A stretch of 41,182 bases of DNA from Bacteroidales bacterium (GTDB taxonomy: Bacteria > Bacteroidota > Bacteroidia > Bacteroidales > JAOZVK01). The notes beneath the pieces were generated by a model. It was given only the letters and a program-made list of their open reading frames with translations. It searched no databases and had not been told where the DNA came from. Within the stretch, counting starts at the first letter, position 1, and the number at the start of each line of letters is the position of its first letter. This document shows, one piece after another, positions 6,045 to 30,705 of the stretch. Location: NCBI GenBank assembly GCA_029938185.1, contig JAOZVK010000003.1:1-41182 (forward strand). Reading direction: 5' to 3'. Made by a program: the position numbers and the translations under genes.

Positions 6045-7865
6045 ATGATACATGAAATAACAAATTTTATTAATTATTTAGAAGAAAGTGATATAAAAAA
6101 TAACACAAATATTTTTTTAGAAAATTTATATTTAAAAGAGGGTTTGTATGTTTTTTTAGAGAAAGATGACGATGAACTCATTATAGGTGATGTTTTGAAA
6201 GTAGATAAAAAAACCGAAAAAAATAATTTGTATAATGAGTTTATGCAAAGATATTCTGTTACTGAAATGATTAGAAATAAAAGTCTCAATTCATCGGAGA
6301 AAATTTTTATAGAAATTGGAAGCCCTTTTGCAATTTCAATTTCGGGTAAAGGACAAAAAAAAGGAAGAATAAAAAAATTACAAGCAGCTGAAGCTTATTT
6401 TAAAGCAACTCAAAAATACATAGACAGCAAAGAGGAACAACATGTTGAATGGTTTGAAAATTTAAAATTCTATGTAAGAAACAAGATGTTTGATTTTTTG
6501 GATAGTCTCGAAGAGTATAAAAATCCAAAAGATAATTTTATGTTTTATTTTTTTATTAAAAAGCCTGAAATTAAGGATTATATTGGTTTTTATGATAAAT
6601 ATCTGAAAACAAAAGTGTTTTTATACGATTTGAAAAAAGATGAAACACATGGAATAAGTAATGACCTGAATGTATTTAATGTTAAAAAAGCATTTTTAAA
6701 ACATAAATCGGCAACTTTTGATATAAACTACAAAATAACAGGTGAGGACGCAATGAAATTATACAAGTTTTTTCGATTGCAACAGAAAAATAAAATACTG
6801 CCAAACCCAATGCCCGTTTTTGTTGATAAAAATGAACTGACAACAGAAGCAGTAAAATTTTATAAAAAAGATCATAAAGAAATTATTGAACATCTTATTG
6901 ACCAAAAAAAAGACGATTTACATAATTATTATCTTATATATTTTCAAAATAATTTGAAGGGTAGCAGAATTGTTGATTTGGATTTTGTGCCGGTTTTTAA
7001 GCATAAGCTTGAAAAAAACATAAAAATTGAAACTATTTTTAATACTTCAAAAAAAACTATTTTTTTCAAAAAAATTGAAACTGTTTTTGATTTTGAAAGT
7101 ATAATTGTTTGTAAAATATTTAACAATAGTTTGGTTCAATATTCAAGCAAAAATAATAATTTTTCATTGAAATATTTTGATGAAATTGACAATAATCCAA
7201 AATATATTAGCTCAAATACTTATATTCAAATAATGAAATATCGTAAAGCATTTTACGATTTTATATACAAATCAAAACATCAGGCAATAACAAATATTAT
7301 GTTTCAGGATATTATGCAAAGTTCAATTCTTGATGATATTAGACATGACGAATATAAACCGGATAAAAAAATTCACACAAAAGATATAGCAATTAAAGAA
7401 AAACTAAATATTTGGTTTAGTTTATTTAATTATTTTACTCATAAAAAAAAGACAGAAAATATGATTAATAAAACAGAACTACTTTTTGATAGACTAAAAA
7501 CTATTGCTAAAAACAGCAAAGAAAGAATAAGGAATGAAGAAGAGTTTGCATTTGCTTCTGGACAATTGATTTGGAAATTATTAATTCAAAGCGAATCCTC
7601 TAATCGTACACATGCGATGTTAGAACCTTTTTTGCAAAAAACAGATGCAGAGCTATTTAAACAAGCAATTGCAAGAACTTATGAAATATATAAACATAAA
7701 TTTACTATTTATTCTACAAAATATGAGTTTGATAAGATTATGAGCGAAGTTATGGGAATAGAAACTGAAACCAATATAAAAACACTTGTTCCGCTAATTT
7801 TAGCAGGATATTTTGCAGAAACAATTTTTAAAAAAAAAGATAACGAAGATAGTGAAAACAATTAA
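6045..7865 (+). CDS. cas8: Type I (I-B-like) CRISPR-associated large subunit Cas8 (module 1)
   Basis: 606 aa ORF immediately upstream of a Csh2-like Cas7; helical C-terminal region; context and size fit Cas8b. Subtype not certain. Confidence 0.75.
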   Translation: MIHEITNFINYLEESDIKNNTNIFLENLYLKEGLYVFLEKDDDELIIGDVLKVDKKTEKNNLYNEFMQRYSVTEMIRNKSLNSSEKIFIEIGSPFAISISGKGQKKGRIKKLQAAEAYFKATQKYIDSKEEQHVEWFENLKFYVRNKMFDFLDSLEEYKNPKDNFMFYFFIKKPEIKDYIGFYDKYLKTKVFLYDLKKDETHGISNDLNVFNVKKAFLKHKSATFDINYKITGEDAMKLYKFFRLQQKNKILPNPMPVFVDKNELTTEAVKFYKKDHKEIIEHLIDQKKDDLHNYYLIYFQNNLKGSRIVDLDFVPVFKHKLEKNIKIETIFNTSKKTIFFKKIETVFDFESIIVCKIFNNSLVQYSSKNNNFSLKYFDEIDNNPKYISSNTYIQIMKYRKAFYDFIYKSKHQAITNIMFQDIMQSSILDDIRHDEYKPDKKIHTKDIAIKEKLNIWFSLFNYFTHKKKTENMINKTELLFDRLKTIAKNSKERIRNEEEFAFASGQLIWKLLIQSESSNRTHAMLEPFLQKTDAELFKQAIARTYEIYKHKFTIYSTKYEFDKIMSEVMGIETETNIKTLVPLILAGYFAETIFKKKDNEDSENN

Positions 7866-8901: not shown

Positions 8902-9666
8902 ATGGCAACAGTTGATAATATACTACTGAAAGATATAACTTTCTCTGGTCTTGATATATTCACTTTGGAAAATCTATTTGAAATTTCATCACTATCTCAC
9001 AAATCGACAGAAATTGCTTTACGTTTATTGAACGACAACGATTTAATTCTAAAAATTGAAAAGGGAAAATATTGCAAATTTGATTTCAAAGATGAACTTG
9101 TAATTGGCAATTTTTTGAGCAGAGACGGAGGAATTGCTTATTGGACAGCAATGAATTACCACGGTCTGACAGAGCAAATTTCAAATACTATTTTTGTTCA
9201 AACATCTTATAAAAAACCAAGAAAGACAATTTTTGGAACTAAATATGTTTTTGTTCAAATAAAACCTGAAAAATTAACAGGATACAAAACCTTAGGATAC
9301 GGTAATCACCAGTACAGAATAAGTGATTTAGAAAAAACTATTGTGGATTGTTTTGATTTGCCAAATCATTCAGGTGGTTATCCAGAAGTTATCAAAGCCT
9401 TTGCCAATGCTGATATAAAAGCAAGAAAATTAGTAAGATACTGCAAAGCAATCAACAATATCTCTGTTGTAAAACGTTTAGCTTATCTTACTGAATTGTT
9501 ATGTAAAAAAAATATGGAGTATTTTATAGATTATGCTTTGTCAGTAAGAAATAAAAAATACAATTTATTTGAACATAATGGAGAACAAAAAGGTAAAGGA
9601 CTAAAAAAATGGCGATTGATTTTAAATATGAACGATGATGAAATTCTTGAAATTGCAAATTCATAG
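8902..9666 (+). CDS. AbiEi-type antitoxin / transcriptional regulator (type IV TA)
   Basis: 254 aa, N-terminal wHTH-like region; 'GGIAYWTAMNYHGLTEQISNTIFVQTSYKK...YRISDLEKTIVDCFDLPNHSGGYPEVIKAF' typical of AbiEi family antitoxins. Confidence 0.88.
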   Translation: MATVDNILLKDITFSGLDIFTLENLFEISSLSHKSTEIALRLLNDNDLILKIEKGKYCKFDFKDELVIGNFLSRDGGIAYWTAMNYHGLTEQISNTIFVQTSYKKPRKTIFGTKYVFVQIKPEKLTGYKTLGYGNHQYRISDLEKTIVDCFDLPNHSGGYPEVIKAFANADIKARKLVRYCKAINNISVVKRLAYLTELLCKKNMEYFIDYALSVRNKKYNLFEHNGEQKGKGLKKWRLILNMNDDEILEIANS

Positions 9667-9667
9667 T

Positions 9668-9877
9668 TAAGTACTGTTATAAAGGTTTTTCGACATTTAC
9701 TTATTCATAACTTACTGATTAAATTATCTTTGTAAGGTCTTCGACCTATTTAATATTGCTTACGCAAGATATATAATAAACGGTATTTCAAAAAGTAAGC
9801 TCAATACTAAATAGGTAAAAACTTTTGTATGGGTGCTTACTAATGCGTAAACAACTATAAATAGGTCGAAGACCTTA
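9668..9877 (-). repeat. 105-bp element (minus) interrupted by a second plus-strand copy at 9733-9839
   Basis: 9668-9732 + 9840-9877 reconstitute a 103-bp minus copy; 9733-9839 is TAAGGTCTTCGACC...GGGTGCTTA. Confidence 0.8.
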
Positions 9878-9898
9878 AAACTAAAATACTAAGAACAA

Positions 9899-10754
9899 AT
9901 GATAGAACAAAGAGAAATATTTGAACATAATGAAAGCCTCGGAGTACCACCTACAACAATTGATAAAGATTGGATACTTGGTCATTTTTTAAATGCAATG
10001 TTCCAATTTGAAGACATAAAGCACAATTTTGTTTTCAAAGGCGGTACATGCTTGAAGAAAGGTTATTTTCCAGATTATAGATTTTCTGAAGATTTGGATT
10101 TTACCCTTTTGGATAATCAATTTTTAGTTGATAAAAAACTAATAAATAAACTCATCAAACTTACTACACAAAATAGTGCTGCAAAGTTCTATTGTGAAAG
10201 TATAAAGGAGCAAATATATAAAGATATTAAACAAGGATATGAAGTGATAATTAAGTTTTGGGGTGCCAACCATAAACCGAATCAAAGACCATTACCACCA
10301 AAACGTTGGCAAACAAAAATTAAATTAGATATTAATTTTACTGAAAAGTTACTTTGTGTTCCTTTACTTAAAAAAATTATACATCCTTTATTCTGATGAA
10401 ATCAAAATTACGAGTTCTGTTCCTACTTATTCATATTTTGAGATTGTAGCAGAAAAACTTCGTACACTTGTACAAAGAAATCGTCCAAGAGATGTCTATG
10501 ATAATTGGTACTTTTCCAATAATATAAAATCGAAAGATTTTATTGAAATTAGAAAAATATTGATGGAGAAAGCCAAAAATAAGGATGTAAATATTTCGAA
10601 TGTAAATCAATTTGTAAATGATAAAAAGAGGAAAAAAAATAAACGTGCATGGGAAAGTAGCTTAAAACATCAAATTTCTGAAAAAAATCTTCCTGAATTT
10701 GATATTGCTTATGATAATTTATATCCATTTATAAAAAATATTTTAAACTCTTAA
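9899..10754 (+). pseudogene. AbiEii nucleotidyltransferase toxin, interrupted by a frameshift at a poly-A run
   Basis: ORF 9899-10396 (FKGGTCLKKGYFPDYRFSEDLDFTLL, NTase motif) and ORF 10356-10754 (KKLYILYSDEI...YFEIVAEKLRTLVQRNRPRDVYDNWYF) are one protein in two frames; junction at the A7 run 10370-10376. Confidence 0.85.
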
Positions 10755-11693: not shown

Positions 11694-12134
11694 ATGCAAA
11701 AATACGTAAATCAACTAATTGGAGACATACACAAAGCAAAAAATAATGTTCCAGCAAAACCATACTACGAAGTACCTCCCGAAATGGAAGGTATTGAATA
11801 TATTTTGGAGTGGGAAAACAATCCTGAAATACTTATGAGTAAACTATTTAAGCTTGAAAGCTATTTATTTCCACCAACAGATAAGCTTAATACTATACAA
11901 ATGCAGGCAATTACCGATGCTATACTTGAAATGTGGGCTGTATTTAATTTCGAGGCAACTTTTCCAGACAAACTACCTGTGTTGTATCAATACGAACAAC
12001 TTGTAAAACAATTAGATAAAAAGGTAAGGTGGACAAGTGAAGGAGTAAATGTATTTTGGTCATGGTGCGATATAGAGCCAAAAACATGCCCTTTTCCAGA
12101 AGAGTTTTGCGATTGTAAAGATTTGCCCGATTAA
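11694..12134 (+). CDS. Hypothetical protein, Cys-tailed family member 1
   Basis: 146 aa; diverged paralog of 20471-20902 and 38806-39237; shared 'YxxQLIxDxxxA', 'FPPxxKLN', 'MWAVFNFEATFPDKLPVLYQY', terminal 'CPFPEEFCDC'. Confidence 0.8.
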   Translation: MQKYVNQLIGDIHKAKNNVPAKPYYEVPPEMEGIEYILEWENNPEILMSKLFKLESYLFPPTDKLNTIQMQAITDAILEMWAVFNFEATFPDKLPVLYQYEQLVKQLDKKVRWTSEGVNVFWSWCDIEPKTCPFPEEFCDCKDLPD

Positions 12135-12309: not shown

Positions 12310-12981
12310 ATGAGAATACATTTAAAATTATCAAAAAATACAAAACTTGTACCTTATAGTCACCAACATAAACTTGTGGGAGCTATACACAAATGGCTTG
12401 GCAAAAATGATTTGCATGGAAAAATATCTTTATATTCATTTTCTCGCTTGCAAGGTGGCAGTAGCAATAAAAAAGGTCTTGATTTCAAGAATGGAGCAAA
12501 TTGGTTTGTTAGTTTCTATAACGATGATTTTTTGAAAGATATAGTTTTTGGTTTAATGAAAGACAAGCCAGAGATTTTTAACGGTATGCAGGTTGAAACT
12601 GTCACAATTCAAGAAACACCGGATTTTACTAATACCACTTATTTCAAAATAGCAAGTCCTATCCTGATAAAGAGAAACGATGGGGGTTTTATAAAGCATT
12701 TTTTGTATACCGACAAAGAAGCACCCGAACTGCTTACTGAAACACTCCGCAGCAAAATGCAACAAGTAGGTTTAACAGATGATAGTTTGAAAATAGAATT
12801 TGACACCAATTACTCTAAAGCATCTGCCAAACTAATAGACTACAAAGGAATTAAAAACAAAACAAGTTGGTGTCCAGTTATAATTCACAGAAAACCAGAA
12901 ACTAAAGCTTTTGCTTGGAACGTGGGAGTGGGGGAATTCTACTGGTGTGGGTTTTGGGGCGTTAATTTAGGTTTTATTTAA
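12310..12981 (+). pseudogene. cas6: Cas6 endoribonuclease, copy A; 1-bp insertion shifts frame inside the C-terminal Gly-rich loop
   Basis: Nearly identical to 30046-30705 at DNA level. Copy A reads GTGGGAGTGGGGGAATTC where copy B reads GTGGGAGTGGGGAGTTC; the extra base turns GVGSSTGVGFGALI into GVGEFYWCGFWGVNLGFI. Confidence 0.88.
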
Positions 12982-12985
12982 ATAT

Positions 12986-15430
12986 TTGTATATGAAAAAC
13001 AAGATTAATAGTTATTATAATAAAATATTAGAATTTCCGCCTTACGAATATCAAGCAGAAGTAGCTGAATTGTTATTATCTGGAAAAAATATTATTCTAT
13101 CGGTGCCAACTGGTGCAGGGAAAACTTGGGCTTCGATAATACCATTTTTAATTGCAAAACAAGATGAATCAATAAATTTCCCTCAAAAATTAATATACAG
13201 TTTGCCATTGCGAACATTAACTAATTCTATTCATCAAGACATAACAAAAACTTTAGAAAAATTTCAAGAATTTAATGATTTAGCCTCAAAACAAACAGGA
13301 GAATACAGTAATGATAAATATTTTGAGAAAGATATTGTTTTTTCAACAATCGACCAGACACTCAGCAACTTTCTTTCATTTCCATTAACGCTCTCCAAAC
13401 AACAAGCAAATATTAATGCAGGTGCAGTAATTGGCAGTTACTTAGTATTCGATGAGTTTCATTTATTAGACCCAAATCTTTCAATGGCTACAACTCTCGG
13501 CACACTAAGAATGTTATTAAATTTGACAAGGTTTTGCATAATGACAGCAACAATGAGCGATGAATTTATTAATTTCATACAAAATGAAAGTGGACTTGAA
13601 AATATTGAAATTGTAACTTTAAACAATTTTCCTAATGATATTCCTAAAATTAAATCATTAATAGCTCCGAAAAATGTGACAAAAAAAGAAATAATAATTT
13701 CAAAAGATACTATCAATGCAGAAAATATTATAAAGTTGCACAAAAACAAAACAATTGTAATTTGTAATCGTGTTGAAACTGCTCAAAGTTTATTTGTTGA
13801 AATTGAAAAAATCAAAAACCCGGGAACTAAATTATTTTGTATTCACGGACGCTTTTTTGATAAAGACCGCAAGGAAAAAGAGGAAAAAGTAAAAGAATAT
13901 TTCGAAAAAGACAGTAAAAAAAATGCGATACTAATATCTACGCAAGTTATTGAAGCTGGTATGGATATTTCATGCGAAGTTTTGCATACGCAAGTGTCGC
14001 CAGTAAATTCATTTTTGCAAAGAGTTGGGCGTTGTGCAAGATACGCAAACGAAACAGGAAAAATATTTGTTTACGACATATTAACTCTTGATGAAAAGTT
14101 GAAATTAAAAGATACACTTTCAGGTGATAATTTTGATAAAAATGAAATTAAAAAACTAAATAACAAATATTTACCATACAATCAAAATTTATGTGAAAAA
14201 ACTTTTGAAATATTGAGAATAACTCCAAACATTGATGAAAAAGTTGCAGAAAGTTTAGTAAATGAAATAATGACTCCGCAGGAACAAGAAGATACTGATA
14301 ATATAAAAAGTAATCTATTCAATCAAGTTGAAATTAGAAAATCATGGAATGATTGCGAGAAAAATAATTACCGAAATACAATAAGAGATATTCAAAATGT
14401 TGATTTGGTAATTATTAATAATGAAATTAAAAATGATGTTGCTTTACAACCTTATAGTTACGAATGTATTGGACTTTATAAATGGACTTTTATAGGTAAA
14501 TGGAAAAAGATTATAAAAGAAGATTATAATTCAGAAAATGATGATTATCCTGTTTTAAAACGTGGAGAAAATAATATTTTTGATTTTGGAGAGGAAGAAT
14601 ATAAATTGGAACAAGCTGATTATGATAACATCACTGATAGTAGGTTTTATATAAATTCAGATTTTTTTAATTATGACGGCAAAATTGGTTTGAATTTTAT
14701 TAAAATAGGAAATGAAGTATCAAGTAAATCTATTCAAAATGATAAAAATGAGGATTTTAAACCCTTAAAATCAGATACTTTTATTGAACATAATACAACG
14801 ATGTTAAATTATTACCGAGAAAATTTCAAACCTAAAATGAATTTCATTATCAAAGAATTACCTAAATTTATGCAAGTTGAAAATATTGACTTCAACAAAT
14901 TGATTGAAATAATGATTGTAATGCACGATTACGGTAAATTGAACAAAGATTGGCAAACTCCAATAAAAAAATATCAAAGCTTAAAAACAGGAGAAGTAAT
15001 AACAGAGGCTTTGGCACATAGCGATTTTGATAGAACAAAGCCAGATGATATTGAGTTAAGCAAAAAATGTGGCAAACGCCCTGAACATTCAGCAATTGGA
15101 GCATTTGCTTTATATGTAATGCTGAATAGACAAGGGTATGAGGAAAAATTAATTGACCCTGTATGCAGTGCAATTTCCAAGCATCATAATGCAGGAACTA
15201 TTGTAAAAAAAATAAAAGGATATTCTGTAACGAAAAATGATTATAATTCAATTGAAAATTTATTAAAGGATATTAAATTCAGCATGAGACCACTTTCTGA
15301 ATTGAAAGATAAGAGTTTTGCTTTTTCACTATATTCTGACGACAAAAAAATTAAACAAGAAATTTTAGAATTTCTATTATCAAGAATATTAAGAATTTGC
15401 GACCAACGAGCAACTGAAAACATAAAATAA
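12986..15430 (+). CDS. cas3: Cas3 helicase with HD nuclease-like domain at the C-terminus
   Basis: 814 aa; Walker A 'SVPTGAGKTWAS', 'VFDEFHLLDP', 'MTATMSDEF', 'VIEAGMDIS', 'QRVGRCARY'; C-terminal 'MIVMHDYGKLNKDWQ', 'PEHSAIGAFAL', 'AISKHHNAG'. Confidence 0.92.
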   Translation: MYMKNKINSYYNKILEFPPYEYQAEVAELLLSGKNIILSVPTGAGKTWASIIPFLIAKQDESINFPQKLIYSLPLRTLTNSIHQDITKTLEKFQEFNDLASKQTGEYSNDKYFEKDIVFSTIDQTLSNFLSFPLTLSKQQANINAGAVIGSYLVFDEFHLLDPNLSMATTLGTLRMLLNLTRFCIMTATMSDEFINFIQNESGLENIEIVTLNNFPNDIPKIKSLIAPKNVTKKEIIISKDTINAENIIKLHKNKTIVICNRVETAQSLFVEIEKIKNPGTKLFCIHGRFFDKDRKEKEEKVKEYFEKDSKKNAILISTQVIEAGMDISCEVLHTQVSPVNSFLQRVGRCARYANETGKIFVYDILTLDEKLKLKDTLSGDNFDKNEIKKLNNKYLPYNQNLCEKTFEILRITPNIDEKVAESLVNEIMTPQEQEDTDNIKSNLFNQVEIRKSWNDCEKNNYRNTIRDIQNVDLVIINNEIKNDVALQPYSYECIGLYKWTFIGKWKKIIKEDYNSENDDYPVLKRGENNIFDFGEEEYKLEQADYDNITDSRFYINSDFFNYDGKIGLNFIKIGNEVSSKSIQNDKNEDFKPLKSDTFIEHNTTMLNYYRENFKPKMNFIIKELPKFMQVENIDFNKLIEIMIVMHDYGKLNKDWQTPIKKYQSLKTGEVITEALAHSDFDRTKPDDIELSKKCGKRPEHSAIGAFALYVMLNRQGYEEKLIDPVCSAISKHHNAGTIVKKIKGYSVTKNDYNSIENLLKDIKFSMRPLSELKDKSFAFSLYSDDKKIKQEILEFLLSRILRICDQRATENIK

Positions 15431-15443
15431 TCAAAAAATAGTT

Positions 15444-15486
15444 CCTATTATATTTTCTCTTTTTTAATATATTCGCAATATTTTTG
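15444..15486 (+). promoter_or_regulatory. Predicted promoter with CCT-adjacent protospacer-like site (target of crRNA-like element 1)
   Basis: CCT (15444-15446) + ATTATATTTTCTCTTTTT (15447-15464); Bacteroidetes -7 TAnnTTTG match TATTTTTG at 15479-15486. Confidence 0.55.
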
Positions 15487-15492
15487 TAAAAC

Positions 15493-15562
15493 TAAAAAGC
15501 AGGCAGTTCGGAATTGAAAAATTATATTTTGTCTTTTTAATTGAACCATATGCTTGTTTTTT
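15493..15562 (+). ncRNA. crRNA-like regulatory RNA candidate 1 (CreA/CreR-like)
   Basis: AAAGCAGGCAGTTCGGAATTGAAAA | ATTATATTTTGT | CTTTTTAATTGAACCATATGCTTG TTTTTT: repeat 3' half with ATTGAAAA handle, short spacer, repeat 5' half, closing AAGCA/TGCTT stem and oligo-T. Confidence 0.6.
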
Positions 15563-15589
15563 AGTTTCTTGATATATGAAAATTACAGA

Positions 15590-15994
15590 ATGAATAAAAT
15601 TGAAAAATTAATACAATTGCGTGATGATATTTTTGCATGGGCAGAAATAGAATTGAAAGATACAATCGTATTCAATACTGATGCGAATATGGAAATACTA
15701 ATAAATAAGAGAGGCTTAAAACATACTTTAAAAGGAAAAAGCTACAAAAAGGTTGATATGCTTGAAAAAAATGAAGCAACAATTATGTCTGTTAAATATT
15801 TGAACCATTTTCTTGAAAGTTCTAAGTATGTTAGATTTGAAGAGGATAGCAGACAAAGAAACAATCTTATAGGCTTTCATATTTTTGCAAATATTTTCAA
15901 CTATAAAGAGAATAAATATAATGTTAAAATAATAGTAAGGGAAACAAAAGAGAAAGTTTATTTTTATGACCAAGCATTATTTGAAAAAAAATAA
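15590..15994 (+). CDS. Small protein resembling BECR-fold (barnase/EndoU/ColicinE5/RelE-like, PBECR) nuclease domain; putative toxin
   Basis: About 134 aa from ATG 15590; 'KRGLKHTLKGKSYKKVDMLEKNEATIM...LIGFHIFANIFNYKENKYNVKIIVRETKEKVYFYDQAL' has the G-[LI]-K-H...FxxF/V...VRET...FYD pattern of PBECR-like domains. Recognition from memory, not a search. Confidence 0.5.
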   Translation: MNKIEKLIQLRDDIFAWAEIELKDTIVFNTDANMEILINKRGLKHTLKGKSYKKVDMLEKNEATIMSVKYLNHFLESSKYVRFEEDSRQRNNLIGFHIFANIFNYKENKYNVKIIVRETKEKVYFYDQALFEKK

Positions 15995-16129
15995 CCCGAC
16001 CACCGAGCATCTTACGTGTTTTCGGTTAGTAGGGTCGGGGTTTATGGTACCGAGCATCTAACGTGTTTTCGGTTATACTAATGCAAATTTACAACTATAT
16101 AATATAAAAATCAAATTTTAATGAAAGAA
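15991..16129 (+). repeat. Duplicated leader cassette (copy 1), upstream of cas8 of module 2
   Basis: About 139 bp nearly matching 21213-21353, including two ACCGAGCATCTnACGTGTTTTCGGTTA repeats (16002-16028, 16049-16075), CCCGAC/GTCGGG arms, and the first codons ATGAAAGAA. Confidence 0.9.
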
Positions 16130-17872
16130 TTTAAAATATATAAACAAACAGGTACTTATGCTGAAACTCTTGAAGCTTATGGTTTGGCAAATATTATAGA
16201 AAAAATATATGCTCAGTTAAATATTGATGATAATACAAAAATATTTGATTCAGGGCAATATTACAGTGTAATAGCTAATAGTCCTCTTTCAAGTGAAATG
16301 ATAAATAAGTTAAGTTATTTTCATGTTCTGAAATATATTGCAAGAAAGAATAAAGAAGGAAAACTCAATTTACCCGAAGGTCTGAATTATGATAATTCAG
16401 TTTTCCGCTATGATGAGCAGAAAAATTTAATAGAACAAAGACGAGCTGAAATAAACGAAGCCTATAAAAAGTTTTCGGGTAAAGAAAAAAATAAGCATAG
16501 GCGAAAAAGATTAAAAGAAATTGATAAAAAGTATAGCAATGAAAGTGCTACAAAAATAGATATTGAATTTGATGTTTACAGTCAGGCAAGCACTCCAAAT
16601 CAACTTAGTGGATTCCAAAAAATTTATAATAATTTTTATTTGAATAAAGATAACTTTAATATTCTAATAAGTGATATTTTAAAATATTATTCTAAAAATA
16701 ATAATTTAGAATATCCCAAATTAATAAAAGATAAAAAACTTGTAAATTTCTCTAAAACAATAACAGCAACACAGCTTTATAATCCAAACCAAGGAAAAGG
16801 ATTAAATAAAGCAAAAGCAAATGGTATTAACGGTTTTAATTTTAAATCATCTTGGATTAGTGAAACTTTAAAAACGACTGGAGCTGTTAACAGTATGATT
16901 TGTAAATCAGTTAAAGTCGGCAGTAGTTATGATTTAAAATTATTTGTTCCCGAATTTAATGATATTCACATGTCAAAGAAAACAGAAATTATAAATGAGT
17001 TCAAAAAACATTTAAAAGGGAACACACCTATAAAAATAGATATTTTAAACATTATTATTTTAATAAATAAGTTACTTGAAAATTCTGAAAAAAATCAAGA
17101 CTATTTCGGAAAAGCAAAAAATAAAATCAAAGGTTTATATTCTGTATATCAAAAAGATTTAGGACAGAATAAAGCTGTTTCAAATATTGCATTTATTCAA
17201 ACTCCTGATTTTATAATTATTAATGATAAAAATGATATTGATACATGGCTTGAAATTCTAAATGAACAAATATCAATTATAAGCAGTATTGATGAACTTG
17301 GTAGTTCGGTGCAAGCATTAATGGCATATCGTAATTTTATAAATGCTTCGCATCTTGAAAGTTTTTTCATATTTTCATATTGGTATGCAGCTTATCTTAT
17401 GCAATTTTTTTCTGATAAAAAAATATATATAAAACAATTTACTTACAAAATATTAACTAAATTTTATAATCACATGGATAAAAAAGGAAACTTAATGAAT
17501 ATTATTAATAATGAAGGATTTCAAGCTATTGCAAAAGCAATAAGAAACAGCACTGTTACCTTACAATATGTAAAATCAAAAGGATTAAAACCAAAATTTG
17601 ACATTAGATACGGTGTTGCTCAATCCTTGCAAAATAAATCTAAAACATCGGATAATTTAGCGACTTACATAGGTAGCTTTATAGCATCTTTTAACGCTGA
17701 ATCAGGTATGAAAGCAGAAAAGAAAGAGTTTAGGAAGCGTGTAACTGAAACAGAATTAACAGAATTTTATTCTTTGTTAGATAATAATTCTTCAAAATTA
17801 GTCGGAGCATTACTTGCTTCTTATAGTTTTGCAAAAAGTAAAAATGATGATTCAAATAAAGAAACGAAATAA
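16121..17872 (+). CDS. cas8: Putative type I large subunit Cas8, subtype unassigned (module 2)
   Basis: 583 aa directly upstream of DevR-type cas7 and cas5; no other large subunit candidate in this set; helical C-terminus. Confidence 0.65.
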   Translation: MKEFKIYKQTGTYAETLEAYGLANIIEKIYAQLNIDDNTKIFDSGQYYSVIANSPLSSEMINKLSYFHVLKYIARKNKEGKLNLPEGLNYDNSVFRYDEQKNLIEQRRAEINEAYKKFSGKEKNKHRRKRLKEIDKKYSNESATKIDIEFDVYSQASTPNQLSGFQKIYNNFYLNKDNFNILISDILKYYSKNNNLEYPKLIKDKKLVNFSKTITATQLYNPNQGKGLNKAKANGINGFNFKSSWISETLKTTGAVNSMICKSVKVGSSYDLKLFVPEFNDIHMSKKTEIINEFKKHLKGNTPIKIDILNIIILINKLLENSEKNQDYFGKAKNKIKGLYSVYQKDLGQNKAVSNIAFIQTPDFIIINDKNDIDTWLEILNEQISIISSIDELGSSVQALMAYRNFINASHLESFFIFSYWYAAYLMQFFSDKKIYIKQFTYKILTKFYNHMDKKGNLMNIINNEGFQAIAKAIRNSTVTLQYVKSKGLKPKFDIRYGVAQSLQNKSKTSDNLATYIGSFIASFNAESGMKAEKKEFRKRVTETELTEFYSLLDNNSSKLVGALLASYSFAKSKNDDSNKETK

Positions 17873-17898: not shown

Positions 17899-18876
17899 AT
17901 GTCAAAAAAAATAGCATCAATATCAGTAAGCGGCAGAATGACGCTGAATATGCATTCTCTCAATAACGAAGGAGGAGAAGGAAATCAAATAATTACACGC
18001 CAATTAACAATAATAGGCAATGACGGCGAAGAACATACAGTAAATGGTATTAGCGGAGATATGTTTAAACATATCCATGTCGGACATCTTATTAATAAAG
18101 CAAAAGAAAAGAAATTACCGCTTTGTACGAATTGTAAAATAGCAAACCCAAACAGATTATCAAGTGGAGAAGATTTAGGGACACATTTTAAAAATGAAAA
18201 GGATTTAAAAAAGTTAGGTGATGATAAGATTGCCAATGCAATAATTGAGAAATGTATCATTGATGATACACATGGTGTTTTAGTTACTTCGATAGGAAAA
18301 CAAAATAAAAATCACGCCAGAAAATCTATTGTCGAATTTGCGTGGACAGTTGGAATTCCTGATAGAAATAATACTGAAACTTATATTCATACAAAAATAG
18401 TTTCGGATGCGGGTAATAAAGAAAAAGGGGCTTCAAGTAACGAAGGACAAAATATTTTTCATCGCCCTGCAAATCACGGAGTTTATGCATTTATATGCAA
18501 TGTTGATGTTTACAGACTTTCGTATAACGATGTAACAAGATCATATCCTGAAATTGATAACCGAAATGACAGATACAAAGCTCTTTTAAGCAGTTTATTA
18601 AATACATTTTTAAATCCTAAAGGAGCAATGACAAGCACACAAAAACCGCATATTACAGATTTTGAAGGTGTTGTTTCAATATCTTCAAATTCGACTCCTG
18701 CTCCAACTGTAAGCCCTATTAATGAAGACTATAAAGCAGAAATAATTACAGTAAAAGACAACCTAAATAAGATTGAAGGCTCTAAAACTATTGAAGTAAA
18801 AGAATTTAATGGACTTGGGCAATTATCAAGTATTTTTGAAGAACTAATAAAAGCTGAACCCTATAAAATAAATTAA
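17899..18876 (+). CDS. cas7: Cas7, DevR/Csa2/Cst2-like autoregulator family (module 2)
   Basis: 'ISVSGRMTLNMHSLNNEGGEGNQIITRQLTI...NGISGDMFKHIHVGHLI...ANHGVYAFICNVDVYRLSYND', DevR-type Cas7; carries a CTNC insert. Confidence 0.92.
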   Translation: MSKKIASISVSGRMTLNMHSLNNEGGEGNQIITRQLTIIGNDGEEHTVNGISGDMFKHIHVGHLINKAKEKKLPLCTNCKIANPNRLSSGEDLGTHFKNEKDLKKLGDDKIANAIIEKCIIDDTHGVLVTSIGKQNKNHARKSIVEFAWTVGIPDRNNTETYIHTKIVSDAGNKEKGASSNEGQNIFHRPANHGVYAFICNVDVYRLSYNDVTRSYPEIDNRNDRYKALLSSLLNTFLNPKGAMTSTQKPHITDFEGVVSISSNSTPAPTVSPINEDYKAEIITVKDNLNKIEGSKTIEVKEFNGLGQLSSIFEELIKAEPYKIN

Positions 18877-18877
18877 T

Positions 18878-19552
18878 ATGAAATTTTCAGCAATATTTAA
18901 ACCGACAAGTTTATTTTCACTAAAAGATAGTAATTCAACTAATTCGGGAGCGAAATCATTATTTTTACCTTCGCCTTATTCCATAAAAATGGCAATAATT
19001 AATCAAGCTATAACAGCTGGTGATCAATTAAAATTACTATCTGCTAAAAAAAGTAAGGAATTTGAGTATATCAGTAAGGCGGAGGTTTCTTTTAACATTA
19101 ACAACGGATTTTGTGTAAATAATTTGTTTATTAAAATTCAAAGATTAAAAAGGGAAGGGGTTGGTTATCAGTCGACTGTCAGTTTTAGAGAATTTATTCA
19201 TATTCCAGATACAATAGAAATTATATTTAATGTCGTTAATGGTGAGGCTAAATTATTCTTAATGAATTATATTCATAAAATTAATTATTTTGGTAAACGA
19301 GCTTCATTTTTTCAATTTTTAAGATATAATGAAATTCCTGAAAAAGGTAATGTATTGGATTTTAAAACCGGAGAGATTACAGGAGGTATTATTCAACAAT
19401 ATGATGATTTTCCAAAAAATGCAACGTTTGACAAAATAAATAGTTACTCAGGAGCAAGAATTACAAGAGATAAAAAAGTTTTACTGATTCCGATAGTACT
19501 AAAAAATGCCTCAAAGTCTTTTAGTTCTTATAAACTTAAAAATGAAATATAA
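18878..19552 (+). CDS. cas5: Cas5 (module 2)
   Basis: 224 aa immediately after cas7; 'FKPTSLFSLKDSNSTNSGAKSLFLPSPYSIKMAIINQAI...VSFREFIH' Cas5-like N-terminus and position. Confidence 0.75.
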   Translation: MKFSAIFKPTSLFSLKDSNSTNSGAKSLFLPSPYSIKMAIINQAITAGDQLKLLSAKKSKEFEYISKAEVSFNINNGFCVNNLFIKIQRLKREGVGYQSTVSFREFIHIPDTIEIIFNVVNGEAKLFLMNYIHKINYFGKRASFFQFLRYNEIPEKGNVLDFKTGEITGGIIQQYDDFPKNATFDKINSYSGARITRDKKVLLIPIVLKNASKSFSSYKLKNEI

Positions 19553-21003: not shown

Positions 21004-21212
21004 ATAAATTGGGCTACCAGTTTTAAGTTAGACGCTTTTTAAACGCAAAGACACACAAAGTTTAACGCAAAGTTTCGCAAAGTTTTGCTAATCTTTACTT
21101 TAATTCTATGGTTAAAACTAATTGAAAAAACAAGACTGTCCAACTTCTGACGGGTAGCCATAAATTGCAAATGGGATTTAATTTTCAAAATATAAATAAA
21201 TGAATATTGAAA

Positions 21213-21353
21213 AATAACCCGACCACCGAGCATCTTACGTGTTTTAGGTTAGTAGAGTCGGGATTTATGGTACCGAGCATCTTGATGTGTTTTCGGTTAT
21301 ACTAATGCAAATTTACAATTATATGATATTAAAATCAAATTTTAATGAAAGAA
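21213..21353 (+). repeat. Duplicated leader cassette (copy 2), upstream of the WYL regulator
   Basis: Same as 15991-16129: ACCGAGCATCTTACGTGTTTTAGGTTA (21225-21251), ACCGAGCATCTTGATGTGTTTTCGGTTA (21272-21299), CCCGAC/GTCGGG arms, TAATGCAAATTTACAA...TTTTAATGAAAGAA. Confidence 0.9.
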
Positions 21354-29876: not shown

Positions 29877-29916
29877 CCTAAGAAATTTGTTATTAAAGTA
29901 AACAATATTATCTTTG
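29877..29916 (+). promoter_or_regulatory. Predicted promoter overlapped by CCT-adjacent protospacer-like site (target of crRNA-like element 2)
   Basis: CCT (29877-29879) + AAGAAATTTGTTATTAAAGTAA (29880-29901); -33 TTTG 29886-29889 and -7 TATCTTTG 29909-29916, 19-nt gap, matching Bacteroidetes TTTG/TAnnTTTG. Confidence 0.65.
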
Positions 29917-29922
29917 CATAAT

Positions 29923-30026
29923 TATTTGTTAAAATAGATTTTGGTAAGTACACAGGAATTGAAAAAAGAAATTTGTATTTAATGTAATTTCTACTTTAAT
30001 CGAACCATGTACTTACCGTTTTTTTA
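29923..30026 (+). ncRNA. crRNA-like regulatory RNA candidate 2 (CreR-like) upstream of cas6-cas8b
   Basis: GGTAAGTACACAGGAATTGAAAA | AAGAAATTTGTATTTAATGTAATTTCTA | CTTTAATCGAACCATGTACTTACC-G-TTTTTTT: repeat halves flanking a 28-nt spacer, closed by perfect GGTAAGTACA/TGTACTTACC stem and oligo-T. Confidence 0.68.
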
Positions 30027-30045: not shown

Positions 30046-30705
30046 ATGAGAATACATTTAAAATTATCAAAAAATACAAAACTTGTACCCTATAGTCACC
30101 AACATAAACTTGTGGGAGCTATACACAAATGGCTTGGCAAAAATGATTTGCATGGAAAAATATCTTTATATTCATTTTCTCGCTTGCAAGGTGGCAGTAG
30201 CAATAAAAAAGGTCTTGATTTCAAGAATGGAGCAAATTGGTTTGTTAGTTTCTATAACGATGATTTTTTGAAAGATATAGTTTTTGGTTTAATGAAAGAC
30301 AAGCCAGAGATTTTTAACGGTATGCAGGTTGAAACTGTCACAATTCAAGAAACACCGGATTTTACTAATACCACTTATTTCAAAATAGCAAGTCCTATCC
30401 TGATAAAGAGAAACGATGGGGGTTTTATAAAGCATTTTTTGTATACCGACAAAGAAGCACCCGAACTGCTTACTGAAACACTCCGCAGCAAAATGCAACA
30501 AGTAGGTTTAACAGATGATAGTTTGAAAATAGAATTTGACACCAATTACTCTAAAGCATCTGCCAAACTAATAGACTACAAAGGAATTAAAAACAAAACA
30601 AGTTGGTGTCCAGTTATAATTCACGGAAAACCAGAAACTAAGGCTTTTGCTTGGAATGTGGGAGTGGGGAGTTCTACTGGTGTTGGTTTTGGGGCTTTAA
30701 TTTAA
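30046..30705 (+). CDS. cas6: Cas6 endoribonuclease, copy B (intact)
   Basis: 219 aa; intact 'NVGVGSSTGVGFGALI' Gly-rich loop; near-identical to 12310 copy. Confidence 0.95.
   Translation: MRIHLKLSKNTKLVPYSHQHKLVGAIHKWLGKNDLHGKISLYSFSRLQGGSSNKKGLDFKNGANWFVSFYNDDFLKDIVFGLMKDKPEIFNGMQVETVTIQETPDFTNTTYFKIASPILIKRNDGGFIKHFLYTDKEAPELLTETLRSKMQQVGLTDDSLKIEFDTNYSKASAKLIDYKGIKNKTSWCPVIIHGKPETKAFAWNVGVGSSTGVGFGALI

Follow-up and report, generated by a model that had tools for sequence, protein, structure and literature searches.

A tandem CRISPR locus and its LPD3 gene

The window, i.e., the whole stretch of DNA analysed (41,182 nucleotides), is the entire contig C13 of a 5.7-Mb Bacteroidales genome in 697 contigs. 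Four type I effector modules stand in tandem between positions 6045 and 41061, in the order I-B, I-A-like, I-D and I-B, and the last of them is followed by one cas4 and one cas1-like gene (Table 1). A large array with the repeat ATTTTAATTGAACCGTATTGGAATTGAAAC lies separately, on contig C21. The second module is, by its Cas8a, Cas7a and Cas5a sequences, type I-A-like, and the sole protein gene that separates its cas3 from its cas8a encodes a protein of 134 aa, placed there already by an earlier reading of the sequence and found in the same position in three genomes.

Table 1. Coordinates of the features discussed, by position in the window
Feature	Position	Strand	Evidence or remark
cas8b, marker of first I-B module	6045
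cas6b, I-A-like module	12310-12981	+
cas3 (helicase + HD), I-A-like module	12986-15430	+
Putative Cascade target	15444-15464	+	PAM CCT (15444-15446), protospacer ATTATATTTT (15447-15456), one mismatch, TCTTTTT
-7 promoter element TATTTTTG (TAnnTTTG)	15479-15486	+
5' arm CTAAAAAGCAGGCA, complementary to 3' arm	15492-15505	+	fold z -4.6
Pseudo-repeat 1, 3' half of CRISPR repeat, GGAATTGAAA + A	15510-15520	+	GGAATTGAAA at 15510-15519
Pseudo-spacer ATTATATTTTGT, 12 nt, seed-sized	15521-15532	+
Pseudo-repeat 2, 5' half of CRISPR repeat, CTTTTTAATTGAACCATATG	15533-15552	+
3' arm TGCTTGTTTTTTAG, T6 run included	15551-15564	+	fold z -4.6
LPD3 gene (one domain, 134 aa), candidate for a regulated toxin	15590-15994	+	Pfam PF18798, AlphaFold2 model, syntenic homologues
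Small RNA, convergent with LPD3 and structured (two hairpins, the second with a GNRA-type loop)	15986-16083	-	U-run terminator at LPD3 3' end
Small-RNA promoter TTG-N20-TAAATTTG	16084-16114	-
cas8a, type I-A large subunit	16121-17872	+	PADLOC Cas8a, E 2.9e-51
cas7a (DevR/Csa2)	17899-18876	+
cas5a	18878-19552	+	PADLOC Cas5a, E 5.3e-56
Orphan second small-RNA copy, upstream of WYL regulator of I-D module	21209-21307	-	promoter 21308-21338
csc2, marker of I-D module	25340
Second crRNA-like element, element 1 design, upstream of cas6 (30046)	29877-30017	+
Element 2 target, CCT PAM + AAGAAATTTGT	29877-29890	+
Element 2 arms GGTAAGTACA/TGTACTTACC	29943-29952 / 30008-30017	+
Element 2 handle (GGAATTGAAA)	29955-29964	+
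Element 2 pseudo-spacer, ~28 nt	from 29966	+
cas8b1, marker of second I-B module	30725

Pfam assigns the protein to the large polyvalent protein-associated domain 3 (LPD3, PF18798; E 6.6e-18), over profile positions 5-111 of 114 and with 65.4 bits against a curated cut-off of 27, so that the whole domain is present; the source genome has one such gene. In PHROGs the protein matches the middle of a phage protein family 2118 positions long. An AlphaFold2 model built on five orthologues gave a single confident domain (pLDDT 91.5, pTM 0.83) that runs from a helix through a beta hairpin, a short GLKH helix and a long helix to a four-strand meander. Foldseek comparison with the viral library BFVD returned at E<=0.001 LPD3-type phage domains only, some of them named LPD3, with TM scores of 0.66-0.81. 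The PDB yielded nothing at E<=0.001, and the best 50 of 874 matches (E up to 10) were NTF2-like or similar, with TM scores of at most 0.34. No close relatives were found by tblastn in phages and plasmids.

Intact homologues in three other genomes (76, 65 and 64% identity) and dN/dS values of 0.09-0.25, at near-saturated synonymous sites, mark LPD3 as a real gene. A longer frame opens with TTG at 15554, but the homologues begin where the ATG stands, and the ATG was therefore taken as the start. The protein Cas8a occurs in three of the 395 genomes sampled from the order, and in all three (the source genome, G116 and G280), which belong to three different families, cas3, a crRNA-like element, LPD3 and cas8a form one unit; wider samples of the class and phylum yielded no further LPD3 or cas8 relatives. 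Among the three unit genomes both the identity of LPD3 (65-76%) and its dN/dS (0.09-0.16 where measurable) match those of cas8, and on this sequence record LPD3 has therefore long been retained with its CRISPR module. Elsewhere, LPD3 of genome G083 stands beside cas6 and a true PBECR3 gene, and G175 has two copies outside CRISPR, one of them interrupted by stops; none of these is accompanied by a crRNA-like element.

The sequence-only reading had assigned the protein to the BECR/PBECR nucleases from the motifs GLKHTL, FHIFANI, VKIIVRET and VYFYDQAL. All four occur in it, but neither the Pfam result nor the fold and profile comparisons bear out the family. No PBECR family of Pfam matches the protein at E<=1, and no BECR nuclease is among the best 50 of the 874 PDB matches of the model, in a search without positive control, the PBECR3 control model, made from one sequence, being too poor for that use (pLDDT 45). 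The hhalign comparison of LPD3 with PBECR3 is insignificant (E 0.013, probability 3%); its alignment sets the LPD3 GLKH against GxxH, a motif of PBECR3, and one LPD3 homologue reaches PBECR3 at E 0.036. BECR nucleases are expected to have a conserved His in an N-terminal helix and an S/T in strand 4; of the candidate counterparts in LPD3, H45 and T119 are invariant among close homologues, and H45 is missing from about half of the distant LPD3 members. The authors who described the polyvalent proteins keep LPD3 outside their six PBECR families and leave it out of the likely enzymatic LPDs (PMC5512222). Since the profile comparison is insignificant and the best 50 PDB matches include no BECR nuclease, the relation is a weak hint and no membership.

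Several other features of these loci were observed. The PBECR3 nuclease-family gene of G083 (E 2.2e-16; L036 1381-1830, minus strand) lies between cas6 and LPD3, so that two phage polyvalent domain types share one CRISPR locus. An LPD3 pseudogene with several stops, next to an intact copy of the small RNA described below, is found at L047 ~9836-10229, outside any CRISPR locus. The first I-B module of the window contains AbiE-type toxin-antitoxin genes (8902-10754) between its cas7 and cas5; the AbiEii coding sequence seems to be divided between two overlapping frames. The cas6 genes at 12310-12981 and 30046-30705 are near-identical to each other, except that around the conserved glycine loop the C-terminus of the former deviates in a way that suggests a frameshift. 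Three related open reading frames (143-146 aa) without known function start at 11694, 20471 and 38806, the last two having the same protein sequence, and short repeats TAAGGTCTTCGACCTATTTAA occur near them in both orientations.

Two crRNA-like elements and their predicted targets

A crRNA-like element upstream of LPD3, suspected before, proved to be real and to consist of halves of the genome's own array repeat. In this element 1 the 3' repeat half is followed by a pseudo-spacer of 12-13 nt (G116 and G280 have 12 nt as well; array spacers have ~36 nt) and then by the 5' repeat half, with TTTTAATTGAACC inside pseudo-repeat 2. Beyond the array, the genome contains just one further match to the 20 nt of the 5' half, with 3 mismatches, and the arrangement of paired halves occurs twice in the window and in none of 400 dinucleotide shuffles. 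Element 1 thus presents ectopic repeat-like sequences around a pseudo-spacer near a cas operon, as in CreTA and CrePA. The outer repeat halves are swapped for the mutually complementary arms, whose sequences differ in G280 with the pairing maintained by two-sided changes. By pairing, the arms would place the half repeats side by side, and one Cas6 might read them as one repeat; the 3' arm and its T-run could instead, or in addition, form an attenuator.

The pseudo-spacer was also predicted to target a promoter, and a seed match with a CC PAM was indeed identified upstream, at the predicted promoter, in all three genomes. CreA of Haloarcula needs seed positions 1-5 and 7-11, while position 6 is unpaired in type I systems and free in CreA (PMC8501985), and both CCA and CCT are proven PAMs of the type I-B system of C. 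difficile (PMC8406132). Counted from the base that follows the last repeat position, nine of these ten seed positions match in the window (CCT PAM), where 10 nt of the pseudo-spacer match 15447-15456 exactly, nine in G116 (CCT PAM; mismatches at positions 4 and 6) and all ten in G280, where the match spans positions 1-17 beside a CCA PAM with a lone mismatch at position 6. A seed match with PAM, as in CreTA and CrePA, is hence present as a conserved pattern, in which the window copy has one mismatch. In shuffled upstream sequence such a match arises with a chance of 0.0013 for the window, 0.0023 for G116, 0.0003 for G280 and 0.0007 for element 2 (see below), and in all four elements it lies 61-75 nt upstream of the handle.

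In G116 and G280, as in element 2, the target and the -33 TTG of a promoter of the Bacteroidota type (TTG-N19-TAnnTTTG) overlap. The window has TTC at N21 in place of TTG at N19, and the same base change accounts for the -33 TTC and, at position 11, for the mismatch in the seed. Target and promoter of the window may therefore be a weakened or partly decayed copy.

Element 2, of the same design, carries GGAATTGAAA before and CTTTAATCGAACC after its pseudo-spacer, and the 11 nt of its seed are matched at 29880-29890, next to a CCT PAM and on a good promoter of the Bacteroidota type, TTG-N19-TATCTTTG. It stands directly upstream of the cas6-cas8b-cas7-cas5-cas3 genes of the last I-B module, without a toxin gene, and by its layout is a candidate autoregulator of the CreR type. 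With elements 1 and 2, toxin control and cas autoregulation could be compared within one genome.

A predicted convergent small RNA at the 3' end of LPD3

Directly 3' of LPD3, a conserved palindromic stretch was found in the window, G116, G280, G083 and on contig C540 of G175; contig C415 of G175 has a variant with one hairpin at this position. Its opposite strand reads as a complete gene for a predicted small RNA of ~93 nt, composed of a promoter, two hairpins and a terminator and convergent with LPD3, and a terminator scan places its U-run across the end of the LPD3 gene. The promoter pattern TT[G/C]-N20-TAnnTTT[G/A] precedes 7/7 small-RNA copies examined, and the hairpins of most copies have GNRA-type loops. 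In the folded alignment 97.9% of the cells are paired, with 7 compensatory pairs against 0 of 500 shuffles. A covariance model scores the window RNA at 107 bits and the copies at 97-115 bits, and detects nothing else notable in 185 kb; Rfam has no family for it. That the 3' hairpin is a genome-wide repeat was considered and rejected: the motifs are confined to the neighbourhood of LPD3 and of the WYL gene, other matches falling within unrelated genes.

The small RNA accompanies LPD3 in every close copy checked, including those of G175 outside CRISPR; beside the distant LPD3 genes of G080, G197 and G056 no clear counterpart was found. Upstream of the gene for the WYL regulator of the I-D module lie two further copies, each with a promoter but orphan, one in the window and one in G083 (L076 2439-2535, minus strand); they also allow a role of the small RNA in regulating neighbouring cas promoters.

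A structured RNA with its own promoter and terminator, linked to a protein gene, resembles in its layout a toxin-antitoxin system of type I or III, and we prefer this reading mainly because LPD3 and the convergent RNA are linked both inside and outside CRISPR loci. In the type I toxin-antitoxin systems bsrG/SR4 and txpA/RatA, a convergent antisense RNA overlaps the toxin 3' end. The likeness to LPD3 extends to the own promoter and terminator of the small RNA and to its position at the 3' end of a small open reading frame, but the toxins of those systems are short hydrophobic peptides, whereas LPD3 is a folded protein of 134 aa; direct binding of the RNA to the protein, as in type III, is equally possible.

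A putative CRISPR-guarded toxin and its relation to known systems

Taken from sequence and comparison, the parts and their register, their conservation and co-occurrence, and the gene structure of the small RNA are those of a module that, by anatomy, would work like CreTA and CrePA. The explanation we favour, at about even chances, is that a type I-A-like Bacteroidales system harbours a CreTA/CrePA-like module in which the regulated LPD3 is most likely toxic and has a second RNA as partner. We infer that one promoter would give rise to a transcript with the minimal crRNA-like RNA first and the LPD3 coding sequence after it, from which Cas6 would free a crRNA-like guide with the predicted start ATTGAAAA. 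Loaded with this guide, Cascade would bind the seed match next to the CC PAM, around position -33, and shut the promoter. This autorepression would end with the loss or mutation of Cascade, or with its inhibition by an anti-CRISPR, so that loss of CRISPR would probably switch LPD3 on. The LPD3 protein would then most likely harm or arrest the cell, and the small RNA would probably restrain it at a second level, pairing in antisense with the 3' end of its mRNA or binding the protein. Several points count against this explanation: the syntenic loci known are only three, the seed has a mismatch in the window (position 11, with the -33 TTC) and in G116 (position 4), LPD3 of G083 and G175 goes without a crRNA-like element, the pseudo-spacer, at 12-13 nt, falls below the ~36 nt of the array, and element 2 is not followed by a toxin gene.

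A more specific version can be put forward tentatively, namely that LPD3 is a new toxin family, shared with the phage polyvalent proteins and equipped with its own two-hairpin RNA antitoxin, that came under the control of the split-repeat guide and is now doubly guarded, with the type I-A-like Cascade repressing transcription, the small RNA neutralising leakage and the fold of the element allowing maturation in a single Cas6 event.

Since element 2 would regulate cas genes in the absence of a toxin, element 1 might likewise serve the regulation of cas8 rather than toxin control, tuning the downstream cas8a-cas7a-cas5a genes with LPD3 as a passenger or accessory cistron. We regard this as rather unlikely, despite the shared design of the two elements and the precedent of CreR, a crRNA-like RNA described as repressing cas promoters (PMC12737573): the first gene after element 1 is LPD3 in all three loci, selection on it is as strong as on cas8, LPD3 and cas8 are separated by the small-RNA gene and its promoter, and in G175 LPD3 and the small RNA exist without CRISPR. 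It appears less likely still that LPD3 was captured from a phage or plasmid as an effector against incoming elements, with an anti-phage role or in answer to anti-CRISPRs, that leaves the host unharmed. Phage polyvalent proteins do contain LPD3 domains, host capture of such domains against invaders has been suggested (PMC5512222), and anti-CRISPRs would turn on any gene repressed by Cascade; however, tight repression and two RNAs are typical for harmful products, and PADLOC matches LPD3 to no defence gene family. The least probable alternative, and a distinctly improbable one, is that of the sequence-only reading, a very divergent RNase of the BECR fold: the helix-rich N-terminal half followed by the four-strand meander, the GLKH alignment, the homologue that reaches PBECR3 and the PBECR3 gene adjoining LPD3 in G083 speak for it, but are outweighed by the best PDB matches, the insignificant profile comparison, the histidine lost in distant members and the separate treatment of LPD3 by the authors of the domain.

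If the favoured explanation of LPD3 as a Cascade-repressed toxin is true, CRISPR-guarded toxins reach type I-A-like systems of the Bacteroidales and are layered there with a second RNA, the toxin is drawn from a family without known function, which gives an LPD domain a testable cellular role, and a seed-only guide of 12 nt formed from two repeat halves suffices for repression by Cascade.

The closest fit to CreR is element 2, whose guide is aimed at the promoter of its own cas operon; element 1 differs in that LPD3, and not a cas gene, comes next. With CreTA, described from type I-B and I-F systems (Haloarcula, Acinetobacter), element 1 shares the degenerate repeats around a pseudo-spacer, the seed-only match with a PAM, position 6 being free, at a promoter whose gene belongs to the cas locus, and, as a prediction, an autorepressed promoter such as PcreTA of H. 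hubeiense (PMC8501985). It departs from CreTA in that the guide precedes the regulated gene, the pseudo-spacer has just 12-13 nt, complementary arms replace the outer repeat halves and the host system is I-A-like and from the Bacteroidales; moreover, CreT is a small toxic RNA, whereas LPD3 is a protein. In comparison with the LPD3 of phage polyvalent proteins, which it resembles in Pfam score and fold, the LPD3 of the window is a stand-alone cellular gene in a cas operon and not a domain of a large phage protein. A protein RNase in the role of CreT had been expected to be new, but CrePA already pairs a crRNA-like CreA with the protein toxin CreP, which contains a KilA-N domain (PMC12737573), and control of a protein toxin by such an RNA is therefore not new in kind. 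Both systems place a protein with a phage-related domain behind a crRNA-like RNA, the repression of LPD3 being predicted, but LPD3 has no KilA-N domain (Pfam gives LPD3 alone) and is accompanied by the convergent structured small RNA. The new aspects are therefore that the putatively regulated product is LPD3, that the host system is type I-A-like and from the Bacteroidales, that the seed-sized guide comes from a split repeat and that a second RNA is present.
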